This document shows positions 15,400-32,098 of a stretch of DNA of 64,000 nucleotides, piece by piece. This stretch comes from Bradyrhizobium sp. CCBAU 51765 (GTDB lineage: Bacteria; Pseudomonadota; Alphaproteobacteria; Rhizobiales; Xanthobacteraceae): contig NZ_CP030038.1 in the NCBI RefSeq assembly GCF_015291725.1, positions 3,089,001-3,153,000 on the forward strand, read 5' to 3'. Each line of letters begins with the position of its first letter. Position 1 is the stretch's first letter. The notes beneath the pieces are model-generated. The model was not told where the DNA came from. It made no database searches and worked only from the letters and a program-made list of their open reading frames with translations. Both the position numbers and the translations under genes were made by a program.

Positions 15400-17244
15400 G
15401 TGATTCCGTTTCGGCTATTTGTTTTGTTAATATTGGCGGTGGGCTTTGCCTGCGGACCGGCGCATGCCGACCGGCGAGTCGCGCTCGTGATCGGCAATTC
15501 CGCCTACAAGAGCGCACCCAAACTTGGCAATCCCGTCAACGATGCCACCTTGGTCGGCGGCATGTTCAAGAAGGCCGGTTTTGATTCCGTCGACGTCAGG
15601 CTGGATCTCAGTGCCAGCGAGATGCGGCGCATGCTGCGCGAGTTCGCCGGCAGGACGCGCGATGCGGAAATGGCGGTGATCTATTACGCTGGCCACGGCA
15701 TCGAGCTCGACGGCAACAACTATCTCATTCCGACCGACGCTACGCTGGAGACTGACGGCGACGTTCTCGACGAGACCATCCCGGTCGAGCGGGCATTGTT
15801 CGCGGTCGAGCCGGCCAAGCAGCTGCGCCTGATCATCCTGGATGCATGCCGCGACAATCCATTCGCGAAGACGATGAAGCGCACACTGGCCTCGCGCGCG
15901 ATCGGACGCGGCCTCGCCAAGGTCGAGCCGACCAGCCCGAACACGATGATTGCGTTTGCGGCAAAAGCCGGCTCGACGGCGTCCGATGGCGATTCCAGAA
16001 ACAGCCCGTTCGCCACCGCGCTGGTCGAGCACCTGCCAAAACCCGGCCTCGATCTGCGCAAGGCCTTCGGCTTCGTTCGCGACGATGTGCTCAAGGCGAC
16101 CGGCTACAAGCAGGAGCCCTATGTCTACGGCTCGCTAGGCGGCGACGATGTGCCCTTGGTTGCGGTCAAGCCGGCTGCGACCGGTCCGCAGGCGAACCCG
16201 CAGGAGGCCGTGCGCAGGGACTATGAGCTCGCGCTCCAACTTGCGACGCGCGACGCCTGGGAAGCGTTTCTGGCAGCATATCCCGACGGCTTCTACGCCA
16301 ATCTCGCCAAGGGGCAGCTGAACAAGATCGGCGCCGAGGAGACGCGCGCGGCGGCTGAGCAAAAGGCAAGGGTGGCCGAGCAGGAAAAGGCGAGGCTGAT
16401 TGCCGAGCGCGCCCAGAAGGCCGAGCAGGAGAAGGCGGCCGCGGCGGCCAAGGCGGCCGAAGAGGCGCGGATCGCGGCCGAAAAGAAGAAGGAGATCGAG
16501 CAGGCGAGGGCCGAAGCGGCCGAACGCGAGCGCAAGGCGGCAGAGGCGGCGGCTGCGAGAGCGCTGGCCGAGAAGCAGGCGGCGGAAAAGGCCAAGGCCG
16601 AGCTTGCCGCAAGGCAGGCTGCCGAGAAAGCGGAGCAGGCTGCAAAGCCGGCGGCCGATCGGCAGTTGCCCGAAGTCGAGAACCAGAAAGTGGCCGCGCT
16701 TTCGCCCGCGCCGACATCGTCGTTATCCGCAGCTGACCTCGCCAAATCCGTACAGAGCGAATTGCGCCGCGTCGGCTGCCTCACGTCGACTGCGGAGGGC
16801 GAGTGGACGGCGGCCGCGCAGCGCTCGCTGACGCTGTTCAACAAATATGCCGGCACCCAGTTCGATGTGAAGCTTGCGAGCGTTGACGCACTCGATGCGC
16901 TCAAGGCGAAGCCGGGACGGGTCTGTCCGCTGGTGTGCAATTTCAGCTTCAAGGCCGACGGCGATCAATGCGTGAAGATCACCTGCCGCGCCGGCTATCG
17001 CGTCGGTGACGACAACGAGTGCGAGAAGATCCCGGAGAAGAAGCCGGTCGCAACGCGGGAAGATTCGAGAAGGCGTGATCAGGATCGAAAACAAACGGAG
17101 GGCGCGCCATCAGCGCCGCAGGCTTCGGGGCAGGTGATCTGCAACAGCGCCGGTTGCAGGCCGATCGCCAAGGGGTGCCGGCTCGGAACAGCCAATCATC
17201 CGTCCAATCCCGCGGTTAAAATACCGGCCGAAATCTGCAACTGA
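15400..17244 (+). CDS. Secreted caspase-like (peptidase C14) protein with coiled-coil tail
   Basis: 614 residues. A signal peptide (1-23, cleavage after AHA) precedes a p20-type caspase domain. The catalytic dyad is His99 in VIYYAGHGIELDG and Cys150 in IILDACRDNPF. A long Ala/Glu/Lys-rich coiled coil follows at about residues 310-420. The C-terminal region has several cysteines (CPLVC, CVKITCRAGY) and ends AVKIPAEICN. Bacterial orthocaspases cleave after Arg or Lys; natural targets are unknown. The start is GTG; no in-frame ATG precedes the signal peptide. Alternatives such as a sensor or scaffold use of the fold cannot be excluded. Confidence 0.85.
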   Translation: MIPFRLFVLLILAVGFACGPAHADRRVALVIGNSAYKSAPKLGNPVNDATLVGGMFKKAGFDSVDVRLDLSASEMRRMLREFAGRTRDAEMAVIYYAGHGIELDGNNYLIPTDATLETDGDVLDETIPVERALFAVEPAKQLRLIILDACRDNPFAKTMKRTLASRAIGRGLAKVEPTSPNTMIAFAAKAGSTASDGDSRNSPFATALVEHLPKPGLDLRKAFGFVRDDVLKATGYKQEPYVYGSLGGDDVPLVAVKPAATGPQANPQEAVRRDYELALQLATRDAWEAFLAAYPDGFYANLAKGQLNKIGAEETRAAAEQKARVAEQEKARLIAERAQKAEQEKAAAAAKAAEEARIAAEKKKEIEQARAEAAERERKAAEAAAARALAEKQAAEKAKAELAARQAAEKAEQAAKPAADRQLPEVENQKVAALSPAPTSSLSAADLAKSVQSELRRVGCLTSTAEGEWTAAAQRSLTLFNKYAGTQFDVKLASVDALDALKAKPGRVCPLVCNFSFKADGDQCVKITCRAGYRVGDDNECEKIPEKKPVATREDSRRRDQDRKQTEGAPSAPQASGQVICNSAGCRPIAKGCRLGTANHPSNPAVKIPAEICN

Positions 17245-22484: not shown

Positions 22485-23138
22485 CTAGATCCTGGTCAGC
22501 CCACAGGTCGCGGCCAGCCGCACGAGTTGCGCATCCGTGCGCGCGCCGGTCTTGGTCTTGATCAGGTAGTGATAGTTCTGCACCGTTTTGACGCTGAGAT
22601 TGAGATGCGTCGCGATCTGCTCGGTGGTGGCGCCGCCGGCGAACTGGCGCAGGATCTCGATCTCGCGCTCACCCAGCTGGTCCAGCGCCGAACCCTTCGG
22701 CGACAGGCTGTCCTCGGCCAGAACATGCGCGATGTCGTCGCTCATGGCGCGCTCACCGCGCGCCACGCTGCGGATGGCGCGCACAACCGCGGACGGCTCG
22801 CTGCTCTTGGTGACGAAGCCCGAGGCTCCGGCGCCAAAGGCGGCCTTCACCAGCACGGCTTCGTTGTGCATGGTGAAGACGAGGATCCGCGCCCGCGGGC
22901 TGCGCGCGCGGATGTTGCGGATCGCCTCCAGCCCGCTCGCGCCGGGCATCGAGATATCGAGCACGACGACGTCGGGATCATGCGCCTTGAACGCGCTGTA
23001 GGCGTCCGCGGCGTTGTCGGCCTCCGCCACGACGTGCAGATCTCCCTGGCTTTCCAGCACGCGCCGGTAGCCTTGCCGGACGATCGGGTGGTCGTCGACC
23101 AGCAGCACGGAGATGCCTGTTGCTGCAACCTCGCTCAT
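22485..23138 (-). CDS. NarL/UhpA-family response regulator
   Basis: 217 residues. The receiver domain has acidic pocket D15/D16 (LLVDDHP), phosphoacceptor D61 (VVLDISMPG) and the signalling lysine in GFVTKSSEP. A LuxR-type helix-turn-helix lies at about residues 150-210 (LGEREIEILRQFAGG, then HLNLSVKTVQNYHYLI). ATG 23138 has GAGG upstream and begins 8 bases past the stop of the kinase gene, so kinase and regulator form an operon. Target genes are unknown; the divergent ExbB-like operon is the obvious candidate. Confidence 0.9.
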   Translation of the reverse strand: MSEVAATGISVLLVDDHPIVRQGYRRVLESQGDLHVVAEADNAADAYSAFKAHDPDVVVLDISMPGASGLEAIRNIRARSPRARILVFTMHNEAVLVKAAFGAGASGFVTKSSEPSAVVRAIRSVARGERAMSDDIAHVLAEDSLSPKGSALDQLGEREIEILRQFAGGATTEQIATHLNLSVKTVQNYHYLIKTKTGARTDAQLVRLAATCGLTRI

Positions 23139-23145
23139 GCCGGCC

Positions 23146-24513
23146 TCACGCAGCGAGCGGGATGGTGGCGGCAACGCTGAGGCCGCCGCGGGCCGGCAGG
23201 ATCGACAGCGATCCGCCGGCTGCCGTGACGCGCTCGCGGATGCCCGTCAGACCGAAGCCGGCCGACTGCGCGACACGGGCTGCGTCGCCGCCGCCGTCGT
23301 CCTCGACGTGGATCAGCAGCGCATCGTCCTCGCCGGCACGGCGTTCGACGCGCAGGCTGATCTCGCGCGCCACGCCGTGACGGAGCGCGTTGGTCAGGCA
23401 TTCCTGTGCCACGCGATAGGCCGTGTTGGCGGCCGGACCGCTGATGTCGGTGAGGTCACCCCTGAGATCGAGCTGGATCGTCGGCCGCGCCGCGCTCTGC
23501 GAACGCCAGCTGTCGACGAGATTGACGAGGCTCGCCTCGAGCCCGAGCTCCTCGGGCAGCGGATTGCGCAGACGCTTCAGTGCATCGCGGAGCGAGGACA
23601 TCAAATGATGGGTGGCCTGCGAGATCATGCGCGCATCCTGAGCGATTCCGGTGCTGCGGTCCTTCGTGCTCGCTGTCTCGATCGTGTTGGCGAAGGCGAG
23701 GATGGCGGAGAGATTCTGCCCGAACTCGTCGTGCAGCTCGCGGGCGAGGGCGCGACGCTCGTCGTCGCGGATTTCGATCAGGCGCCGCGTCAGGGCGGCG
23801 CGCTGCTCGGTGGCTTCCTCCAGCCGGTTGCCGAGCGCGCCGACGGCGCTGCCGATCATCGCCAGCTCCATCGAGCGGAAGCGCGGCAGCTTCGTGCGAT
23901 ATTGACCGCGCGCCATGCGCTGCAAGGCGGTGACGATCGTGCGCGCCGGTGCCAGCGCATGTGCGATCGCGAGCGAGGCCAGCAGCGCAATTGCCGCCGC
24001 CATGAGCAGCGCGACATCGATCACATTGAGGATGTACTCCCAGGCCAGCGAGATGGCCGCCGCGCCGTCCGGCGTCGCAACCACCGTGCCGGCAGCCGCC
24101 GCGCGGGGGCTGACGGGCCGGATGACCTCGGCGTGGCTGCCGAGGAAGGTGGGCACAATGGCGGCGAACCAGCGCGGCGGCGCCTTGCCCAGCCCCTCGC
24201 TCTGGCCGCAGAGCGGCTTCTCGAATGCCACAGCCGGCTGGAACTCGACGCAGACGCCGGGCGAGATCAGCTTCATCGTCTCCAGCGTGCGCCAGTCCGG
24301 AACCGGCAGGAGATGCTCGCGCGCTCTGCTGCTGCGCAACAAGAGCTCGCGCCAATACAGCGCCTGGAGCGCCTGCGCGACCCGCTGCGCCGAGGCCGCG
24401 GTCGCCCGATCGATGCTGCGATAGGCGTCGAAGGTGGCCCACACGGTCGCGGCTCCGAGACAGAGCACGACGATGAGCAGCAGACGGGCGACAAGCTGAA
24501 GCACGAGGCGCAT
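23146..24513 (-). CDS. UhpB-type sensor histidine kinase
   Basis: 455 residues. Two transmembrane helices (about 8-28 and 165-187) flank a periplasmic sensor region of roughly 135 residues that is not recognised. A HAMP-like linker, then a HisKA_3 dimerisation domain with phosphoacceptor His261 (ALARELHDEFGQNLSA) and an HATPase_c domain with the N box AQECLTNALRHG and G box GFGLTGIRERV follow. ATG 24513 is preceded by GGGGGTG. It should phosphorylate the adjacent NarL-type regulator. The stimulus is unknown. Confidence 0.9.
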   Translation of the reverse strand: MRLVLQLVARLLLIVVLCLGAATVWATFDAYRSIDRATAASAQRVAQALQALYWRELLLRSSRAREHLLPVPDWRTLETMKLISPGVCVEFQPAVAFEKPLCGQSEGLGKAPPRWFAAIVPTFLGSHAEVIRPVSPRAAAAGTVVATPDGAAAISLAWEYILNVIDVALLMAAAIALLASLAIAHALAPARTIVTALQRMARGQYRTKLPRFRSMELAMIGSAVGALGNRLEEATEQRAALTRRLIEIRDDERRALARELHDEFGQNLSAILAFANTIETASTKDRSTGIAQDARMISQATHHLMSSLRDALKRLRNPLPEELGLEASLVNLVDSWRSQSAARPTIQLDLRGDLTDISGPAANTAYRVAQECLTNALRHGVAREISLRVERRAGEDDALLIHVEDDGGGDAARVAQSAGFGLTGIRERVTAAGGSLSILPARGGLSVAATIPLAA

Positions 24514-24594
24514 GCGATCACCCCCGACGTTTGGTAAGGTCAGCCTAACAACGCCGCCGCGTCTTGCCAATTGTGGTGGTTGGGGCGGATTGCA

Positions 24595-24615
24595 GCTTGG
24601 GCAAATTTCCCAAGC
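24595..24615. promoter_or_regulatory. Inverted repeat in the divergent kinase/ExbB-like promoter region
   Basis: Seven-base arms GCTTGGG and CCCAAGC separated by CAAATTT, close to the middle of the 200-base gap between the divergent histidine kinase and ExbB-like genes. Position and symmetry suit a dimeric response regulator. Confidence 0.5.
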
Positions 24616-24713
24616 CGGATTGGGCATGGGTCTTTGGACCTGAAACGGCGGCTTTGATCTAATCGGTGGGGATGCGTTGCAAGCCAGTGCTTGCGAGCCA
24701 GGAGCGGTGCAGC

Positions 24714-25484
24714 ATGAGTTCGATCACGATTGGACCGATCGCGGGGACTGCGACCGACCCGTCCGAGCGCAGTGCGCTCCTGTTCTGGATGATCTTCACC
24801 GGGCTCTCGATCTTCGCCGTCGTGCTGCTGTGGCGCTTCGGCCTGATCCACCTGATGCTGACCTCGGACCGGACCTACATTTCCAGCGTGATCGCGCTGC
24901 TTTACGTCCTCACCTGCGGCCATTGCTTCCTGCGCACGCGGGCGATTGCGCGTGAAGGCGCGGCGGCGCGGCGCTGCCGGGCGGTGCTGGCGGCGCCGGA
25001 CGGCAGCAAGGTGCTGGATGCGAGCGCGGCGGTGCTGCCGCGCGGACTGGTGCGCGACCACATCCAGAGCCTGGTGACGAAAGCCGCGGCGCAGGACTAC
25101 CGGCCGGTCGACCAGACGCTGCTGTTGCGAAACCTCGCTGATCGCTTGCGGGGCTCCAACGGCTTCGGTGCTTTCGTCTCCGATACGCTGATGAAGCTCG
25201 GCCTGCTCGGCACCATCATCGGCTTCATCATCATGCTGGCGCCGATCGCGGGACTGGATGCCGCCGACAAGGTCGCGATGCGCTCCTCGATGGGCCTGAT
25301 GAGCGACGGCATGGCGGTCGCGATGTACACGACGCTCGCCGGCCTCGTCGGCTCGATCCTGGTCCGCATCCAGTACTACATGCTCGACGCCGCGACCCAG
25401 CGGGTGTTCTCGGATGCAGTGCTGCTGACGGAGACCTATGTGACGCCGGTGCTGGAGCGCAAAGGTTCCGGTGCGCCGTCATGA
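24714..25484 (+). CDS. MotA/TolQ/ExbB-like proton channel family protein
   Basis: 256 residues, inner membrane. N-terminal helices at about residues 24-45 and 57-75 are followed by a cytoplasmic loop and then two adjacent helices of the MotA_ExbB domain: SDTLMKLGLLGTIIGFIIML and MAVAMYTTLAGLVGSILVRI. The GLLGT...G and T-x-x-G-L-x-G elements are those of ExbB, TolQ and MotA. The following gene overlaps its stop codon by four bases, as expected of a channel partner. ATG 24714 has GGAG 9 bases upstream. No tonB, tolA or flagellar genes are near, so neither the Ton, Tol nor motor systems is implied. Confidence 0.8.
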   Translation: MSSITIGPIAGTATDPSERSALLFWMIFTGLSIFAVVLLWRFGLIHLMLTSDRTYISSVIALLYVLTCGHCFLRTRAIAREGAAARRCRAVLAAPDGSKVLDASAAVLPRGLVRDHIQSLVTKAAAQDYRPVDQTLLLRNLADRLRGSNGFGAFVSDTLMKLGLLGTIIGFIIMLAPIAGLDAADKVAMRSSMGLMSDGMAVAMYTTLAGLVGSILVRIQYYMLDAATQRVFSDAVLLTETYVTPVLERKGSGAPS

Positions 25485-26167
25485 TGGATGATTTCGGTCT
25501 CTATCCGCGCGAGGAGCCGTTCGATCCGCTCGGCGTGATGCTGTTCAAGGCGCTCCAGGTGATCGCGTTCCTGTTCTTCCTGGCACTGCTCGCTGTCTCG
25601 CCGGACGCCAAGGACGGCAAGATCGACTCGAAGGCGGAGTTCATCATTACGATGGACTGGCCGGACAATCATCCAGACGATCTCGACCTCTTCGTGCAGG
25701 ATCCGGCCGGCAACATCGCCTGGTATCGCCACCGGGAGGCCGGCTTCCTGACGCTCGACCGCGACGATCGCGGCGGGGCCAATGACTTCATCATCGTCAA
25801 CGGCAAGAAGATCGCCTCGCCCATCCGCGAGGAGATCGTCACCGTGCGCGGCATCGTCGCCGGCGAGTACACCGTCAACGTCTCGCATTTCGTCGCCACC
25901 ACCGGCGAGCCTGTGACCGCCAGTGTGAAAGTGCAGAAGCTCAATCCGACCGCGCAGGTGATCTTCGACAACAAGTTCACGCTCGACCACACCGGCGACG
26001 AGAAGACCGCGGTCCGATTCCGGATCGATGCGGAAGGCAAGGTCGTCGATGTCGATCAGCGGCCGAAATCGCTGCTGGAGACGTTCCGCAGCAGCTGGCG
26101 CAACGGCGGCGATCTCGATCCCAGGACCGGCGTGAGCAGGAACGCTACGAGGGTCCGCCGTGACTAG
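25481..26167 (+). CDS. Single-pass membrane protein with YfaP/DUF2135-like periplasmic domain
   Basis: 228 residues. One N-terminal helix at about residues 18-42 (VMLFKALQVIAFLFFLALLA) leaves the rest outside the cytoplasm. The periplasmic part begins FIITMDWPDNHPDDLDLFVQ, the look of YfaP/DUF2135 domains, and ends in a charged tail. An aspartate in PFDPLGVML just before the helix recalls the ExbD pattern. ATGA overlap with the ExbB-like gene shows translational coupling. By topology it could be the ExbD-equivalent partner, with a different periplasmic domain. The next gene overlaps its 3' end by 8 bases. Confidence 0.7.
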   Translation: MMDDFGLYPREEPFDPLGVMLFKALQVIAFLFFLALLAVSPDAKDGKIDSKAEFIITMDWPDNHPDDLDLFVQDPAGNIAWYRHREAGFLTLDRDDRGGANDFIIVNGKKIASPIREEIVTVRGIVAGEYTVNVSHFVATTGEPVTASVKVQKLNPTAQVIFDNKFTLDHTGDEKTAVRFRIDAEGKVVDVDQRPKSLLETFRSSWRNGGDLDPRTGVSRNATRVRRD

Positions 26168-26765
26168 CCTGCAAACGGTTATCCTGACGTTGTCGGTCGC
26201 CTATGCCGTGATCGGCGCGCTGCTGCTGGTGGTGCTGGTCTATGCGCGGCTGCACTGGTCGTTGAAGGCTGTCGCCGTGGTCGTCACCAGCGCCTTCTAT
26301 GTCGTCAGCTTCACCGAAATGCGCGGACTGCTCGGCTGGGCCAGCTCCGACAGGATGCCTGCCGCCTTCAAGCTGCTCCAGGCCCGCATCGTCGAGCCGC
26401 ATTCGCTGGAAGGCGATCCCGGCTCGATCTATCTGTGGGTCGAGGCGCTTGACGAGGACAATCGCCCGAGCGGCATCCCCCGCGCCTTCCGGGTGCCGTA
26501 CGACGACAGGCTGGCCGACAAGACCCATGCAGCGCAGAACGAGATCGCGGCCGGTCATCCCCAGGGCGGGCGTGCCGCGGATTTCGGCGGCGGCGACGGC
26601 AGCCTGATCGACATGGTCAGGGAATATGTAACGCCGAAGACGATCCTCGAGACCAGCGGCGGCGATTCATCGACAGGCGAATTCAATGCGCCGCCGGCCG
26701 GCGCGCAGGGCGCCGTGTTCACCCCGCTGCCGCCGCCCCGGATGCCGCCCAAGGACGAGCAATAG
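26160..26765 (+). CDS. Membrane protein of unknown function coupled to the ExbB-like operon
   Basis: 201 residues, GTG start overlapping the preceding gene. Two hydrophobic helices lie at about residues 5-28 and 33-55 (LSVAYAVIGALLLVVLVYAR and KAVAVVVTSAFYVVSF). A soluble domain follows with AFKLLQARIVEPHSLEGDPG and IYLWVEALDEDNRPSGIPRAF, then a Gly/Pro-rich tail ending PPPRMPPKDEQ. No family is recognised. The overlap makes it part of the same translational unit, hence probably a subunit or assembly factor of that complex. Confidence 0.65.
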   Translation: MTSLQTVILTLSVAYAVIGALLLVVLVYARLHWSLKAVAVVVTSAFYVVSFTEMRGLLGWASSDRMPAAFKLLQARIVEPHSLEGDPGSIYLWVEALDEDNRPSGIPRAFRVPYDDRLADKTHAAQNEIAAGHPQGGRAADFGGGDGSLIDMVREYVTPKTILETSGGDSSTGEFNAPPAGAQGAVFTPLPPPRMPPKDEQ

Positions 26766-26881
26766 GCACTTCACCAGCCGCGCGGGGCACGCTGGTAAAC
26801 GGCGCGGCGCTGGCGCATGGTCTTGACCTCCCTCAATTTGGCCTTATCGGCCTTCAATAAGATTTGGAGGGTGGAGGGTGC

Positions 26882-27622
26882 GTGCTCCTAGCTGTCTTCT
26901 CGGATATCCACGGCAACCGGCAGGCGTTTGAAGCTTGCTTGAAGATCGCCCGTGCGAAGGGCGCGGAGCGCTTCGTCCTGCTCGGCGATTTCGTGGGCTA
27001 TGGCGCCGATCCGGAATGGGTGGTGGATACCGCGATGGAGCTCGTTGCGCAGGGCGCCGTCGCCGTGCGCGGCAATCATGATCAGGCGGTCAATTCCTCG
27101 GCCGAGACCATGAACGCCGAGGCGCAGATCGCGATCGAATGGACCCGCGGCCGGCTCGACACCGCGCAGCGGCGGTTCCTGGCCGAATTGCCGATGCTGG
27201 TGGAGGACAGTGACCGCCTGTTCGTGCATTCGGAGGCCTCCAGCCCCCAGCGCTGGCACTATGTCCGCTCGACGGTGGACGCCGCCAAGAGCCTGATCGC
27301 GACGCCTGCCCATGTCACGTTCTGCGGCCACATCCATCGCCCCGCGCTCTATTCGATGTCGGTGACGGCCAAGATGACGAGCTTCGTGCCAAAGACCGAC
27401 GTCCCCGTGCAGCTCCTGCGCGGACGGCAATGGCTCGCCGTGCTCGGCTCGGTCGGCCAGCCCCGCGACGGCGATCCCTCGGCGTCCTTCGTGCTGTTCG
27501 ACACGGACTCATGCCAGCTCACCTATTGCCGCGCACCCTATGACATTGCGACCGCGGCAAGCAGGATTCGCGACAATGGGCTGCCGCCCTGGCTGGCCGA
27601 CAGGCTGTCGCAGGGGCGCTGA
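26882..27622 (+). CDS. Calcineurin-like metallophosphoesterase
   Basis: 246 residues, cytoplasmic. The dinuclear metal-site motifs occur in order: VFSDIHGN (D-x-H), LLGDFVGYG (GD), VRGNHD (GNH[D]), VHSEASS and FCGHIHRPA (GHxH). This is the YfcE/MJ0936-like single-domain class that acts on phosphodiesters or on phosphoproteins. The GTG at 26882 starts VLLAVFSDIH; a purine-rich GGAGGG lies just upstream, though its spacing is short and TTG 26864 is the alternative. The kinase gene begins 5 bases after its stop, so phosphatase and kinase are co-expressed. Confidence 0.85.
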   Translation: MLLAVFSDIHGNRQAFEACLKIARAKGAERFVLLGDFVGYGADPEWVVDTAMELVAQGAVAVRGNHDQAVNSSAETMNAEAQIAIEWTRGRLDTAQRRFLAELPMLVEDSDRLFVHSEASSPQRWHYVRSTVDAAKSLIATPAHVTFCGHIHRPALYSMSVTAKMTSFVPKTDVPVQLLRGRQWLAVLGSVGQPRDGDPSASFVLFDTDSCQLTYCRAPYDIATAASRIRDNGLPPWLADRLSQGR

Positions 27623-27627
27623 CCGCG

Positions 27628-29067
27628 ATGCCGAAACCCCTGGTCAAGTCAGGCGCGGAGATCGACGGTTACACCATCGGTGAATGCGTGCATGCCGGCG
27701 GCATGGCGACGCTGTGGGCCGTCACCCATCCGGGCATCGACGTGCCCTTGCTGATGAAGATCCCGCGGGTGTCGGAGGGCGAGGATCCCGCCGCGATCGT
27801 CTCCTTCGAGATGGAGATGATGATCCTGCCGCGGCTCGCGGGTCCGCACGTGCCGGCCTGCTTCGGCACCGGTGATTTCGCCCACCAGGCCTATGTCGTG
27901 ATCGAGCGCATCCCGGGCGCCACGCTCTACAAGCGGCTGCCCGACCTGCCGCTGCCTTACGACGAGGCGCGGCAGCTCGTCGCCAGGATCGCAACTGCGC
28001 TTGCTGATTTGCACCGGCAGAACGTGATCCATCACGATATCAAGCCGAGCAGCATCATGTTCCGCGATTCCGGCGAGGCGGTGCTGATCGACTACGGGCT
28101 GTCGCATCACAACCACCTGCCGGATCTCCTGCAGGAGGAATTCCGCCTGCCTTACGGCACCGCGCCCTACATGGCACCCGAGCGGCTGTCAGGGGTGCGC
28201 GACGATCCGCGCAGCGACCTGTTCTCGCTCGGCGTGCTGCTCTATTTCTTCACGACCGGCGAGCGGCCGTTCGGTGAGGGCGAGACGCTGCGCGCGATGC
28301 GGCGCCGGCTCTGGCGCGACCCGCATCCGCCGCGGAAACTCCGCGCCGACTATCCGCCCTGGCTTCAGGAGGTGGTGTTGCGGTGTCTCGAGATCGAACC
28401 GGTGTGGCGCTACCCGACGGCGTCCCAGCTCGCCTTCGATCTCGCCCATCCGGACCAGGTCAAGCTCACCGCGCGCTCGGAGCGGGTGAAACGTGATCCG
28501 CTCAGCGTCGCCTGGCGGCGTCGTTTCAACCTTGGCGTCATGGCGCCGCGCGCGAAATCGGACGTCGCGGCCCAGATCGCATCGAGCCCGATCCTCGCTG
28601 TCGCGCTCGACACCGTGGAGGGCGCACCGGAGCTGAACGAGGCGCTGCGCGTGACCACCGAGCGCATCCTCGCCACCTTGCCGTCGGCGCGGCTCGCCTG
28701 CGTCAACGTGCTCAAGCTGAACCGGATCGCGATCGACCGGACGCTGGACGAGCAGGGCTCCAACAAGCATATCGACCGCCTGGTTGCGCTCAGGCATTGG
28801 GCGACGCCGCTCAAGCTGGATGAGAGCCGGCTGACGGCCCATGTGCTGGAGTCGGTCGATCCCGCCGCCGCGATCCTGGAATTCGCCGAGGCCAACCAGG
28901 TCGACCACGTCATCATCGGCGCACGGCAGAACTCGTTCAGGCGCACGCTGCTCGGCAGTGTCTCGGCCAAGGTGGCCGCGGAAGCGAGCTGCACCGTCAC
29001 CGTGGTGCGGCCGCAGCGGCTGGCTGGCAATGTCGGCGACTCAGATGGCGGCGACAGGGCGGGATAG
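27628..29067 (+). CDS. Ser/Thr protein kinase fused to a universal stress protein domain
   Basis: 479 residues. An N-terminal Hanks-type kinase (about 12-275) has the glycine loop as CVHAGGMATLW, ATP lysine K44 (LLMKIPR), catalytic loop HHDIKPSS with D137, a DYG in place of DFG at 155-157, and APYMAPERLSG. A C-terminal UspA-type domain (about 310-475) ends with the nucleotide-loop pattern VIIGARQNSFRRTLLGSVSA and the strand CTVTVVRP. There is no transmembrane segment. The pairing of kinase and phosphoesterase suggests reversible phosphorylation of a shared target. All key kinase residues are present, so activity is expected. Confidence 0.88.
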   Translation: MPKPLVKSGAEIDGYTIGECVHAGGMATLWAVTHPGIDVPLLMKIPRVSEGEDPAAIVSFEMEMMILPRLAGPHVPACFGTGDFAHQAYVVIERIPGATLYKRLPDLPLPYDEARQLVARIATALADLHRQNVIHHDIKPSSIMFRDSGEAVLIDYGLSHHNHLPDLLQEEFRLPYGTAPYMAPERLSGVRDDPRSDLFSLGVLLYFFTTGERPFGEGETLRAMRRRLWRDPHPPRKLRADYPPWLQEVVLRCLEIEPVWRYPTASQLAFDLAHPDQVKLTARSERVKRDPLSVAWRRRFNLGVMAPRAKSDVAAQIASSPILAVALDTVEGAPELNEALRVTTERILATLPSARLACVNVLKLNRIAIDRTLDEQGSNKHIDRLVALRHWATPLKLDESRLTAHVLESVDPAAAILEFAEANQVDHVIIGARQNSFRRTLLGSVSAKVAAEASCTVTVVRPQRLAGNVGDSDGGDRAG

Positions 29068-31062: not shown

Positions 31063-31312
31063 GGCGCGTTTTCCCGTGGCGGCCGTGAAAGATGGCCTCG
31101 CCTAACATGGGCCTCCGTGGCGGGCAATGCAGGGAAGCCGTGCTTCCTGTGGGCGGAAATTTCTGCCGCGGCCGGCACGAATTGCCGGTGTTCCCCGGCG
31201 GTGCCGAGCGCGGCGGAGGCGGATTTCATTGAGCTTTTCACGATGGCACGACGCTTGCTGACGTCAGTCCGGAACATTGGCTGCGGCGTGCCGCATCGGT
31301 TGGAGTTGTGCA

Positions 31313-32098
31313 ATGTTGTTCGCCCTTGGTGCGGTATCGAGTGCGCTCGGCGCGATCCAGTCGCTGACGAACTCGAAATCATCCTCATCGACGCAGAAGA
31401 CGGGATCGACGCAAGGCGCGACCAACCCGTTCGCGATCGACAGCGGCAGCAGCACGACCACTGGCGCCACCTCGTCGGTCAATTCGGGCAGATATCCGCA
31501 GATCTCGGCGGAGACGATGAACGCGCTGTTCGCGGCGCAGGGCCAGTCGACGGACACGAGCGGCGCGACCAGTTCATCCTCGACTGGGTCGGCGTCTTCG
31601 GCATCGAAGAGTCCCGAGGATGCGCTGAAGGACCTGTTCTCGCAGATCGATGGCGACGGTGACGGCAAGATCACCAAGTCCGAGTTCGAGGACGCCCTCG
31701 GCGCGGGCGGCACCAATCTGGCCAAGGCCGACGAGGTGTTCTCGAAGATGGACGCGAATGCGGATGGCGACATCAATCTCGGAGAGATGACGAAGGCGCT
31801 GCGGGGCGGCCACGGCGATCAGGCGCAGGGCGCCGGCGGCTCGGGCGGTGGTTCGGACTCCTCGTCGCAATCCGGCGGCGGCTCGACGTCGGCCACGACG
31901 ACCAATGCCGATGGCTCGACCACCACCACCGTCACCTATGCCGACGGATTCAAGATGTCGACCACCGTGCCTGGCGCCTCCAGCAGTTCGAATGCCAACG
32001 GCGGCGGCAATTCGCCCTATGACTGGTTCGGGCAGATGATGCAGCGTCAGGCGCAGGCTTCGGCGGGGTCGGCTTCATCAATGTCGATGAGCGTGTAA
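31313..32098 (+). CDS. EF-hand calcium-binding, low-complexity protein
   Basis: 261 residues. Two canonical EF-hands lie in the middle: loop DGDGDGKITKSE in FSQIDGDGDGKITKSEFEDA and loop DANADGDINLGE in FSKMDANADGDINLGEMTKA, at about residues 115-170. The flanks are Ser/Thr/Gly-rich (for example SKSSSSTQKTGSTQ and GGSGGGSDSSSQSGGGST). Residues 1-15 (MLFALGAVSSALGAI) are weakly hydrophobic; a classical signal peptide is doubtful. ATG 31313 has GGAG 9 bases upstream. Such rhizobial EF-hand proteins may buffer or sense calcium outside the membrane. rpe is divergent. Confidence 0.8.
   Translation: MLFALGAVSSALGAIQSLTNSKSSSSTQKTGSTQGATNPFAIDSGSSTTTGATSSVNSGRYPQISAETMNALFAAQGQSTDTSGATSSSSTGSASSASKSPEDALKDLFSQIDGDGDGKITKSEFEDALGAGGTNLAKADEVFSKMDANADGDINLGEMTKALRGGHGDQAQGAGGSGGGSDSSSQSGGGSTSATTTNADGSTTTTVTYADGFKMSTTVPGASSSSNANGGGNSPYDWFGQMMQRQAQASAGSASSMSMSV

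Follow-up and report, generated by a model that had tools for sequence, protein, structure and literature searches.

A conserved three-gene unit

Three adjacent genes of Bradyrhizobium sp. CCBAU 51765, here called P1, P2 and P3, form a real conserved unit (the triad). Within the open-access literature searched, where no description of it was found, the triad is apparently an undescribed relative of the ion-driven envelope motors; it is probably tied functionally to the metabolism of pyrroloquinoline quinone (PQQ). The genes lie in a stretch of 64,000 nucleotides (the window; contig NZ_CP030038.1, positions 3,089,001 to 3,153,000) of a genome that is a single contig of 8.4 Mb. They are the first of five same-strand open reading frames (ORFs) at 24714-29067 (+) of the window, and are followed by a phosphoesterase gene and a gene for a kinase-Usp fusion.

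P1 (24714..25484, +; 256 amino acids) is a ring-type subunit of the MotA/TolQ/ExbB superfamily, as judged by PF01618, profile matches and hydropathy. P2 (25481..26167, +; 228 amino acids) is an ExbD/MotB-like single-helix subunit with a DUF2135-like domain of predicted TerD fold, assigned from alignments A1 and A5, a structure model, VIA and hhalign. P3 (26160..26765, +; 201 amino acids) is a two-helix membrane protein with a soluble domain. As the initial annotation had stated, the three genes overlap: P1 and P2 by 4 nt (25481-25484), P2 and P3 by 8 nt (26160-26167).

Named bacterial contigs were scanned with an alignment built without sequences of the window's genus; at least 362 relatives were found, and the best 80 loci were analysed. 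P1, P2 and P3 follow one another in order on one strand in 77 of these 80, and the remaining three are interrupted by contig ends. Median gaps within the triad at these loci are 2 and 18 nt. By their titles, the loci come from Alpha-, Beta- and Gammaproteobacteria, with a single case from Deltaproteobacteria. This conservation supports the initial proposal: a candidate new envelope complex of ExbB/MotA type, the partners of which are unusual.

A P2 search of genomes from the same order gave matches in 14 of 150, and in 85 of 98 genomes of the window's genus. Of the matching order-sample stretches, 13 of 14 contain the complete triad, in order and on the same strand. L036, the remaining stretch, has P2 and P3 along with a weak match to P1. 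In a sample of the phylum, 17 of 398 genomes were matched, one of which (L142) has no triad. Below, 'core triad' excludes two genomes with divergent or phage-like copies (G022, G422) and one with no triad (G383); locus L041 is a repeat of L032. A plasmid search with the P2 of L032 gave partial matches only, in seven Azospirillum records.

Phage and viral copies

A compact form of the triad is present in rhizobial phages (L121-L125) and in viral contigs from uncultivated sources. By tblastn, P2 relatives are present in 27 of 50,697 phage records, all named as Rhizobium or Sinorhizobium phages; these reduce to 19 without RefSeq duplicates, and another query gave 19 records. Four of five phage loci read contain P1-like, P2 and P3-like genes by hidden Markov model (HMM) at E 0.01 or better, while P3 of the fifth (L124) was recognised by eye only. 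Three uncultivated viral contigs (L220-L222), two of them nearly identical, have all three genes by HMM at the same threshold. A viral scan with the window's P2 as query found no relative.

The phage P1-like genes are annotated at only 113-148 codons. Phages 16-3 and X2_25 have a gene for a trypsin-like protease just upstream of the triad; in phage N3_19 such a gene is about 2.3 kb downstream. PHROGs gave no family for P1-P3 or for the six phage triad proteins tried.

P1 and P3

P1 matches PF01618 (MotA_ExbB) at 35.7 bits against a cut-off of 22.9. The initial annotation had called it ExbB/TolQ-like; the superfamily stands, but hydropathy gives P1 four hydrophobic segments (about 18-52, 54-75, 151-189 and 198-220). 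MotA has four such segments, while ExbB and TolQ have three. By profile, the best solved chain is 8vvn (E 7e-5), titled a MotA/TolQ/ExbB proton channel domain protein, which we take to be ZorA; MotA and ExbB chains are matched more weakly (E 0.01-0.06).

The match to 8vvn raises the question of a Zorya-like anti-phage defence system, a reading we regard as very improbable. PADLOC also gives weak ZorA matches to P1 (best 25.4 bits), and it matches the kinase domain of the fifth gene to PD-T4-6 (E 5e-52), which is taken as general kinase similarity. Against these, NCBIfam scores P1 at 17.0 bits for ZorA where the cut-off is 500, the fifth gene falls below all listed NCBIfam cut-offs, and none of the five genes encodes a Zor partner. 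Moreover, P2 is present in most members of the genus, and phages themselves carry the triad. An assignment of the fifth gene as Mad6/PD-T4-6, suggested by its strong PADLOC E-values, was also rejected, as NCBIfam MAD6 reached 110.8 against a cut-off of 460.

P3 is a two-helix membrane protein, in agreement with the third membrane protein first annotated. Its model consists of two helices and a small mixed domain (pLDDT 83.3). A Pfam scan gave no family and Foldseek gave no match at E <= 0.001; the best VIA hit, to an eIF5A chain (Z 7.1), was treated as no assignment. Residue K36, which lies in a charged loop, is invariant in 48 sequences; because of this the P3 domain is predicted to be periplasmic (positive-inside).

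The putative periplasmic domain of P2

P2 has a single N-terminal helix (residues 16-39) followed by a beta-rich domain (model pLDDT 83.7). The YfaP/DUF2135-like domain first suggested for it is supported by profile comparison: hhalign matched P2 to DUF2135 with a probability of 92.8, while 30 column shuffles and a reversed profile reached at most 1.1. The alignment covers the region around the D-x-D and P-x-G motif. The DUF2135 profile comprised eight rows (of 15 loci) selected by an assumed motif pattern, a choice that may bias the comparison towards a match. The window's P2 does not itself match Pfam DUF2135 (PF09906) and gives a sub-threshold PPC match only; eight of 47 P2 relatives reach Pfam DUF2135 weakly (best E 0.0012).

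In structure comparison, the P2 model matches 3ibz, a TerD-like chain, with a VIA Z of 11.0 (root mean square deviation 4.4 over 139 residues). Further matches are 7jtk (10.1), 2qng (9.8), 2qz7 (9.5), 2kxt (9.2) and 9a6r (9.0); the best Z of the lower group is 6.7. Chains 2qz7 and 2kxt are titled TerD, the latter as calcium-binding, and 2qng and 9a6r are presumably TerD relatives. A fold in common would not by itself make P2 a member of the TerD family.

Several results weigh against the fold assignment. 7jtk is in the top group and was not recognised as a TerD relative, and Foldseek gave no match to P2 at E <= 0.001. TerD likeness is absent by sequence (hhalign 1.1, with shuffles up to 5.1), and TerD (PF02342) is not among the Pfam matches of P2 or its 47 relatives. 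The TerD rows used (47 ORFs) came from the phylum sample; PF02342 was found in 0 of 61 of the order sample.

Among 25 positions inspected, nine (W60, D67, D69, R94, D95, D96, G98, E118 and R123) are identical in all 99 P2 rows, which contain one duplicate (L041/L032). Five of the nine are acidic (D67, D69, D95, D96 and E118), and the domain may bind metal.

The ion-site aspartate of P2

The triad family looks ion-driven from its sequences. P2 position 19, which we take to align with the ion-carrying aspartate of ExbD/MotB, is Asp in 94 of 99 rows; the phage and divergent P2 proteins retain it in 7/7 alignment rows. Asp15, at the helix entry (codon 25523..25525, +), is Asp in 92 of 99. The window's P2 and the canonical P2 align without gaps from Asp15-Pro16 to Pro41. 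The initial annotation had given P2 an ExbD-like topology with an aspartate at the helix entry; Asp15 bears this out, but the ion-site position is 19, which is Val in the window (codon 25535..25537, +).

Position 19 differs from Asp in exactly the window's clade, which counts against an ion-driven window copy. The five exceptional rows are the window and L024-L027. In a larger set, Asp19 is present in 86/86 bacterial rows outside the clade and Val19 in 34/34 readable clade rows. Two further positions switch with it: Asn23 in 86/86 outside rows becomes Lys23 in 34/34 clade rows (codon 25547..25549, +, in the window), and position 26 changes from Leu in 76/86 to Gln in 34 clade rows. The clade comprises 35 rows from 27 genomes, one row being gapped; these counts exclude seven phage or divergent rows (L036, L037, L121-L125) and the duplicate L041. 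All 11 loci inspected from the window's own family, the window included, have Val19.

The ion-site aspartate is kept across the family and lost in the window's clade. Proton drive is plausible for the family; for the window's copy it is doubtful because Val19 and Lys23 replace the expected residues. The window's P2 thus lacks the canonical-position aspartate expected in the partner of a PF01618 protein, and Asp15 sits one turn earlier.

The neighbouring phosphoesterase and kinase-Usp genes

The fourth gene (26882..27622, +) encodes a calcineurin-like metallophosphoesterase (Metallophos_2) and the fifth (27628..29067, +) a Ser/Thr kinase-Usp fusion (Pkinase and Usp). Both protein types, and the 5 nt spacing between the genes, are as initially annotated; comparative loci place both genes outside the conserved unit. 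The phosphoesterase/kinase-Usp pair, usually accompanied by rpe, is a separate unit that often lies beside the triad, because it is absent at triads outside the genus and is kept where the triad is missing.

By tblastn, neither gene was found at any of the 11 order-sample triad loci outside the genus (L027-L037, 10 genomes). Among the ORFs of L024-L125, phosphoesterase relatives occur only in L024-L026, and the only kinase-domain matches are two at 27% identity, about 8 kb off (L066 and L080). At 20 further loci of the window's family, the pair adjoins P3 in seven, lies 2-6 kb off in six and was not found in the fetched stretch in seven. Of these last seven, L189 stops at the end of its contig shortly after P3. 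Conversely, in 13 members of the genus P2 had no match (some of these genomes are incomplete); six of the 13 keep the kinase-Usp gene at 79-81% identity, each with the phosphoesterase and rpe alongside (L208-L213).

The five-gene order expected at the outset is hence conserved for P1-P2-P3 and not for the other two genes. A five-gene envelope system switched by kinase and phosphatase is consistent with the shared strand and close spacing in the window and with the adjacency in L024-L026 and in the seven family loci just mentioned. Pair and triad each occur without the other, however, and among the ORFs of the named and phage loci no phosphoesterase relative and just the two distant kinase-domain matches were found. 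We consider this system highly unlikely, and with it the control by reversible Ser/Thr phosphorylation that had been proposed.

The gap between P3 and the phosphoesterase gene is 116 nt to a GTG start, or 98 nt to an alternative TTG start. The length of 116 bases, from which separate transcription had been suggested, is correct; a search of the gap for terminator-like and sigma-70-like sites found none, and its RNA folds no better than shuffled sequences do (48 of 200 shuffles fold as well). Separate transcription therefore rests on the comparative data.

A divergent histidine kinase and response regulator

On the other side of the triad lies a divergent pair of regulatory genes (22485-24627, -) that the initial annotation did not mention. 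The histidine kinase (23146..24627, -) has HisKA_3 and HATPase_c domains (Pfam) and is UhpB/NarX-like; its true start is likely further downstream, at about 24516. Its partner is a NarL/LuxR-type response regulator (22485..23174, -). Both genes are at the triad in 15 of the 20 further family loci and in all four of L024-L027. Because of this, the pair is a better local partner and candidate regulator of the triad than the kinase and phosphatase.

A subclade of the window's genus, seen at three loci (L188, L190 and L191), combines Val19 with a triad near PQQ/methanol-dehydrogenase genes; the histidine kinase and response regulator were not found in the stretch fetched for it.

The residue switch and the divergent pair together suggest another reading of the window's clade, in which the complex would not be ion-driven and would instead be a gated or mechanosensing receptor read by the histidine kinase. 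The uniform Val19, Lys23 and Gln26 of the clade and the frequent presence of the pair are in its favour. The subclade just described, which has Val19 in PQQ clusters where the pair was not found, speaks against it, as does Asp15, which remains and could carry the ion. We think such a receptor rather unlikely.

Association with PQQ metabolism

Several triads lie near PQQ and quinoprotein genes that score over their NCBIfam cut-offs. PqqB is near the triad in L031; a PQQ-linked beta-propeller protein and an ABC ATPase in L029; a SoxYZ-like quinoprotein carrier in L028. In L093 an alcohol ABC permease is directly upstream of the triad, and the PQQ-ABC binding protein is under its cut-off (362.3 vs 413.6). 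Two loci of the window's own genus, both with Val19, also belong here: L188 has a SoxYZ-like carrier, a SoxH-like hydrolase and a MoxJ-like protein, and L190 has a PQQ dehydrogenase of the methanol/ethanol family, a methanol-type cytochrome and formaldehyde oxidation genes. In genome G260, pqqB is 2.9 kb from P2. L060 looked like an mxa-like cluster by eye; this was unconfirmed by NCBIfam and the locus was left uncounted. Counting assumed PQQ motif patterns together with a beta-propeller cluster (13 loci), 17 of 89 loci are touched; families with scores were named by NCBIfam alone.

The association is also seen at the level of whole genomes. In the order sample, pqqB is present in 12 of 14 triad genomes vs 38 of 136 others (p 3.6e-5), and outside the window's own family in 8 of 9 core triads vs 37 of 135 (p 4e-4). 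In the phylum sample it is present in 13 of 14 core-triad genomes vs 58 of 384 genomes without a core triad. Among 32 triad genomes from named contigs, selected by hand from the 80 loci to cover groups, pqqB is over its cut-off in 28, against the same phylum-sample background of 58/384. Ten of these genomes are only 1.2-2.2 Mb, some of them maybe incomplete. The triad is probably functionally tied to PQQ metabolism.

A number of observations point the other way. These co-occurrence statistics ignore phylogeny, and a single genus supplies 10 of the 14 core triads in the phylum sample; outside the window's own family the count is 2 of 3 (p 0.06). With the divergent or phage-like G022 and G422 included, so that all triads are counted, the phylum-sample figure is 13/16. 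Four of the 32 named triad genomes have no pqqB over the cut-off, nor do G002 in the order sample and G459, G022 and G422 in the phylum sample. Three motifs for PQQ genes gave no match in the window. Finally, the genes most often found near the triad are of other kinds: YkuD in 33, DUF302 in 25 and VWA-FHA in 22 of 89 loci, rather than PQQ genes.

These neighbour clusters were obtained with a crude ORF caller at the 89 loci, and the families were named from one or two representatives each. The commonest context, mostly at loci with Gammaproteobacteria titles, is YkuD, DUF302, the triad and VWA-FHA. Elsewhere a Sel1-repeat gene lies upstream (21 loci) or a gene that is lipoprotein-like by eye lies downstream (30). 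The scanned member of the post-triad family present in 22 loci (L061:11193-12728) has VWA and FHA domains, a possible link to phosphothreonine signalling.

The PQQ link may be indirect, the triad and PQQ sharing ecological groups while the machine serves the envelope in a general way, for instance with partners at the peptidoglycan or outer membrane. The YkuD, DUF302 and VWA-FHA neighbourhoods fit this explanation, as does the carriage of the triad by phages. Triad genomes of 1.2-2.2 Mb, some of which may be incomplete, nonetheless keep pqqB, and physical proximity of triad and PQQ genes recurs across several groups, the window's genus among them. An indirect link is possible, with a probability that we put well short of even.

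In Methylomicrobium alcaliphilum, two MotA/TolQ/ExbB genes (MEALZ_3990/3991), which may or may not belong to the triad, are reported to be down-regulated with lanthanum alongside mxa genes (PMC6277846).

Two other genes of the window may be mentioned. The protein encoded at 15400-17244 appears by eye to be secreted and caspase-like, the latter from a putative motif. The protein at 31277-32098 has an EF-hand pair (Pfam) and is a possible calcium binder.

Proposed model

Our model, to which we give an even chance, is that P1-P2-P3 is an inner-membrane machine driven by the proton-motive force, serving PQQ or quinoprotein work in the envelope, with an ion site altered in the window's clade. P1 would form a ring, as its homologues suggest. 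P2 would be the axle: its single helix, which in most members has the pair Asp15/Asp19, would sit inside the ring, and its beta-sandwich, with the invariant acidic residues, would lie in the periplasm. P3, with two helices, would be a partner whose periplasmic domain possibly provides force or signal output. The proton-motive force would then drive envelope work for PQQ/quinoprotein metabolism, for instance by handling metal, cofactor or enzyme at the alcohol dehydrogenases of the periplasm. Within the window's clade, where the triad is mostly beside the histidine kinase and response regulator, the copy may run on Asp15 or may have become a gated or signalling version. Conservation, residue switch, likeness of the domain and association with PQQ are observations; the stoichiometry of ring and axle, the energisation, the task and what P3 does are parts of the model.

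A more specific form of this model is offered tentatively, and we would not expect it to hold in full: a proton-powered machine for PQQ-dependent alcohol oxidation, maybe for calcium/lanthanide or cofactor loading, which was captured by phages and rewired in one clade.

If the general model is true, the triad would be a further class among the small number of envelope motors known. It would also be a possible energy-coupling device for periplasmic PQQ/quinoprotein metabolism, none of which was found in the literature searched. By replacing the aspartate throughout, the window's clade offers a natural experiment on what drives such motors, and the presence of the triad in rhizobial phages points to a host process worth manipulating in infection.

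Comparison with known systems

ExbB-ExbD, TolQ-TolR and MotA-MotB are ion-driven motors of 5:2 stoichiometry. The triad resembles them in that P1 belongs to PF01618, and in that P2 has a single N-terminal helix, an aspartate at what is presumably the canonical position in nearly all rows, and then a periplasmic domain. It differs in the nature of that domain, which is DUF2135-like with a predicted TerD fold, in the loss of the aspartate from the window's clade, and in the third protein, P3, which follows in nearly all of the best 80 named loci. The four hydrophobic segments of P1 set it apart from ExbB and TolQ in particular.

No TonB, TolA, TolB or Pal was found in nine window proteins scanned; neighbours elsewhere belong to other families, as seen without a dedicated TonB/TolA search. 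The initial statement that no ton, tol, mot or Zorya partners are present agrees with the absence of TonB, TolA and Pal from the nine proteins and of Zor proteins from the five.

If 8vvn is ZorA, as we assume, then among solved chains the nearest to P1 by profile is from Zorya. ZorA has a long tail, which P1 lacks; in addition, the five genes include neither ZorB nor effectors, and the triad is common across the genus. The triad is distinct from Ton, Tol, Mot and Zorya.

Two further families resemble the P2 domain. In contrast to YfaP/DUF2135 proteins, P2 carries this domain on a motor-type helix. The TerD family is linked to tellurite resistance; the predicted fold of the P2 domain is like that of TerD (Z 9.2-11.0 against chains with TerD or TerD-like in their titles), but P2 shares no sequence similarity with TerD beyond controls, and is membrane-anchored and probably periplasmic.

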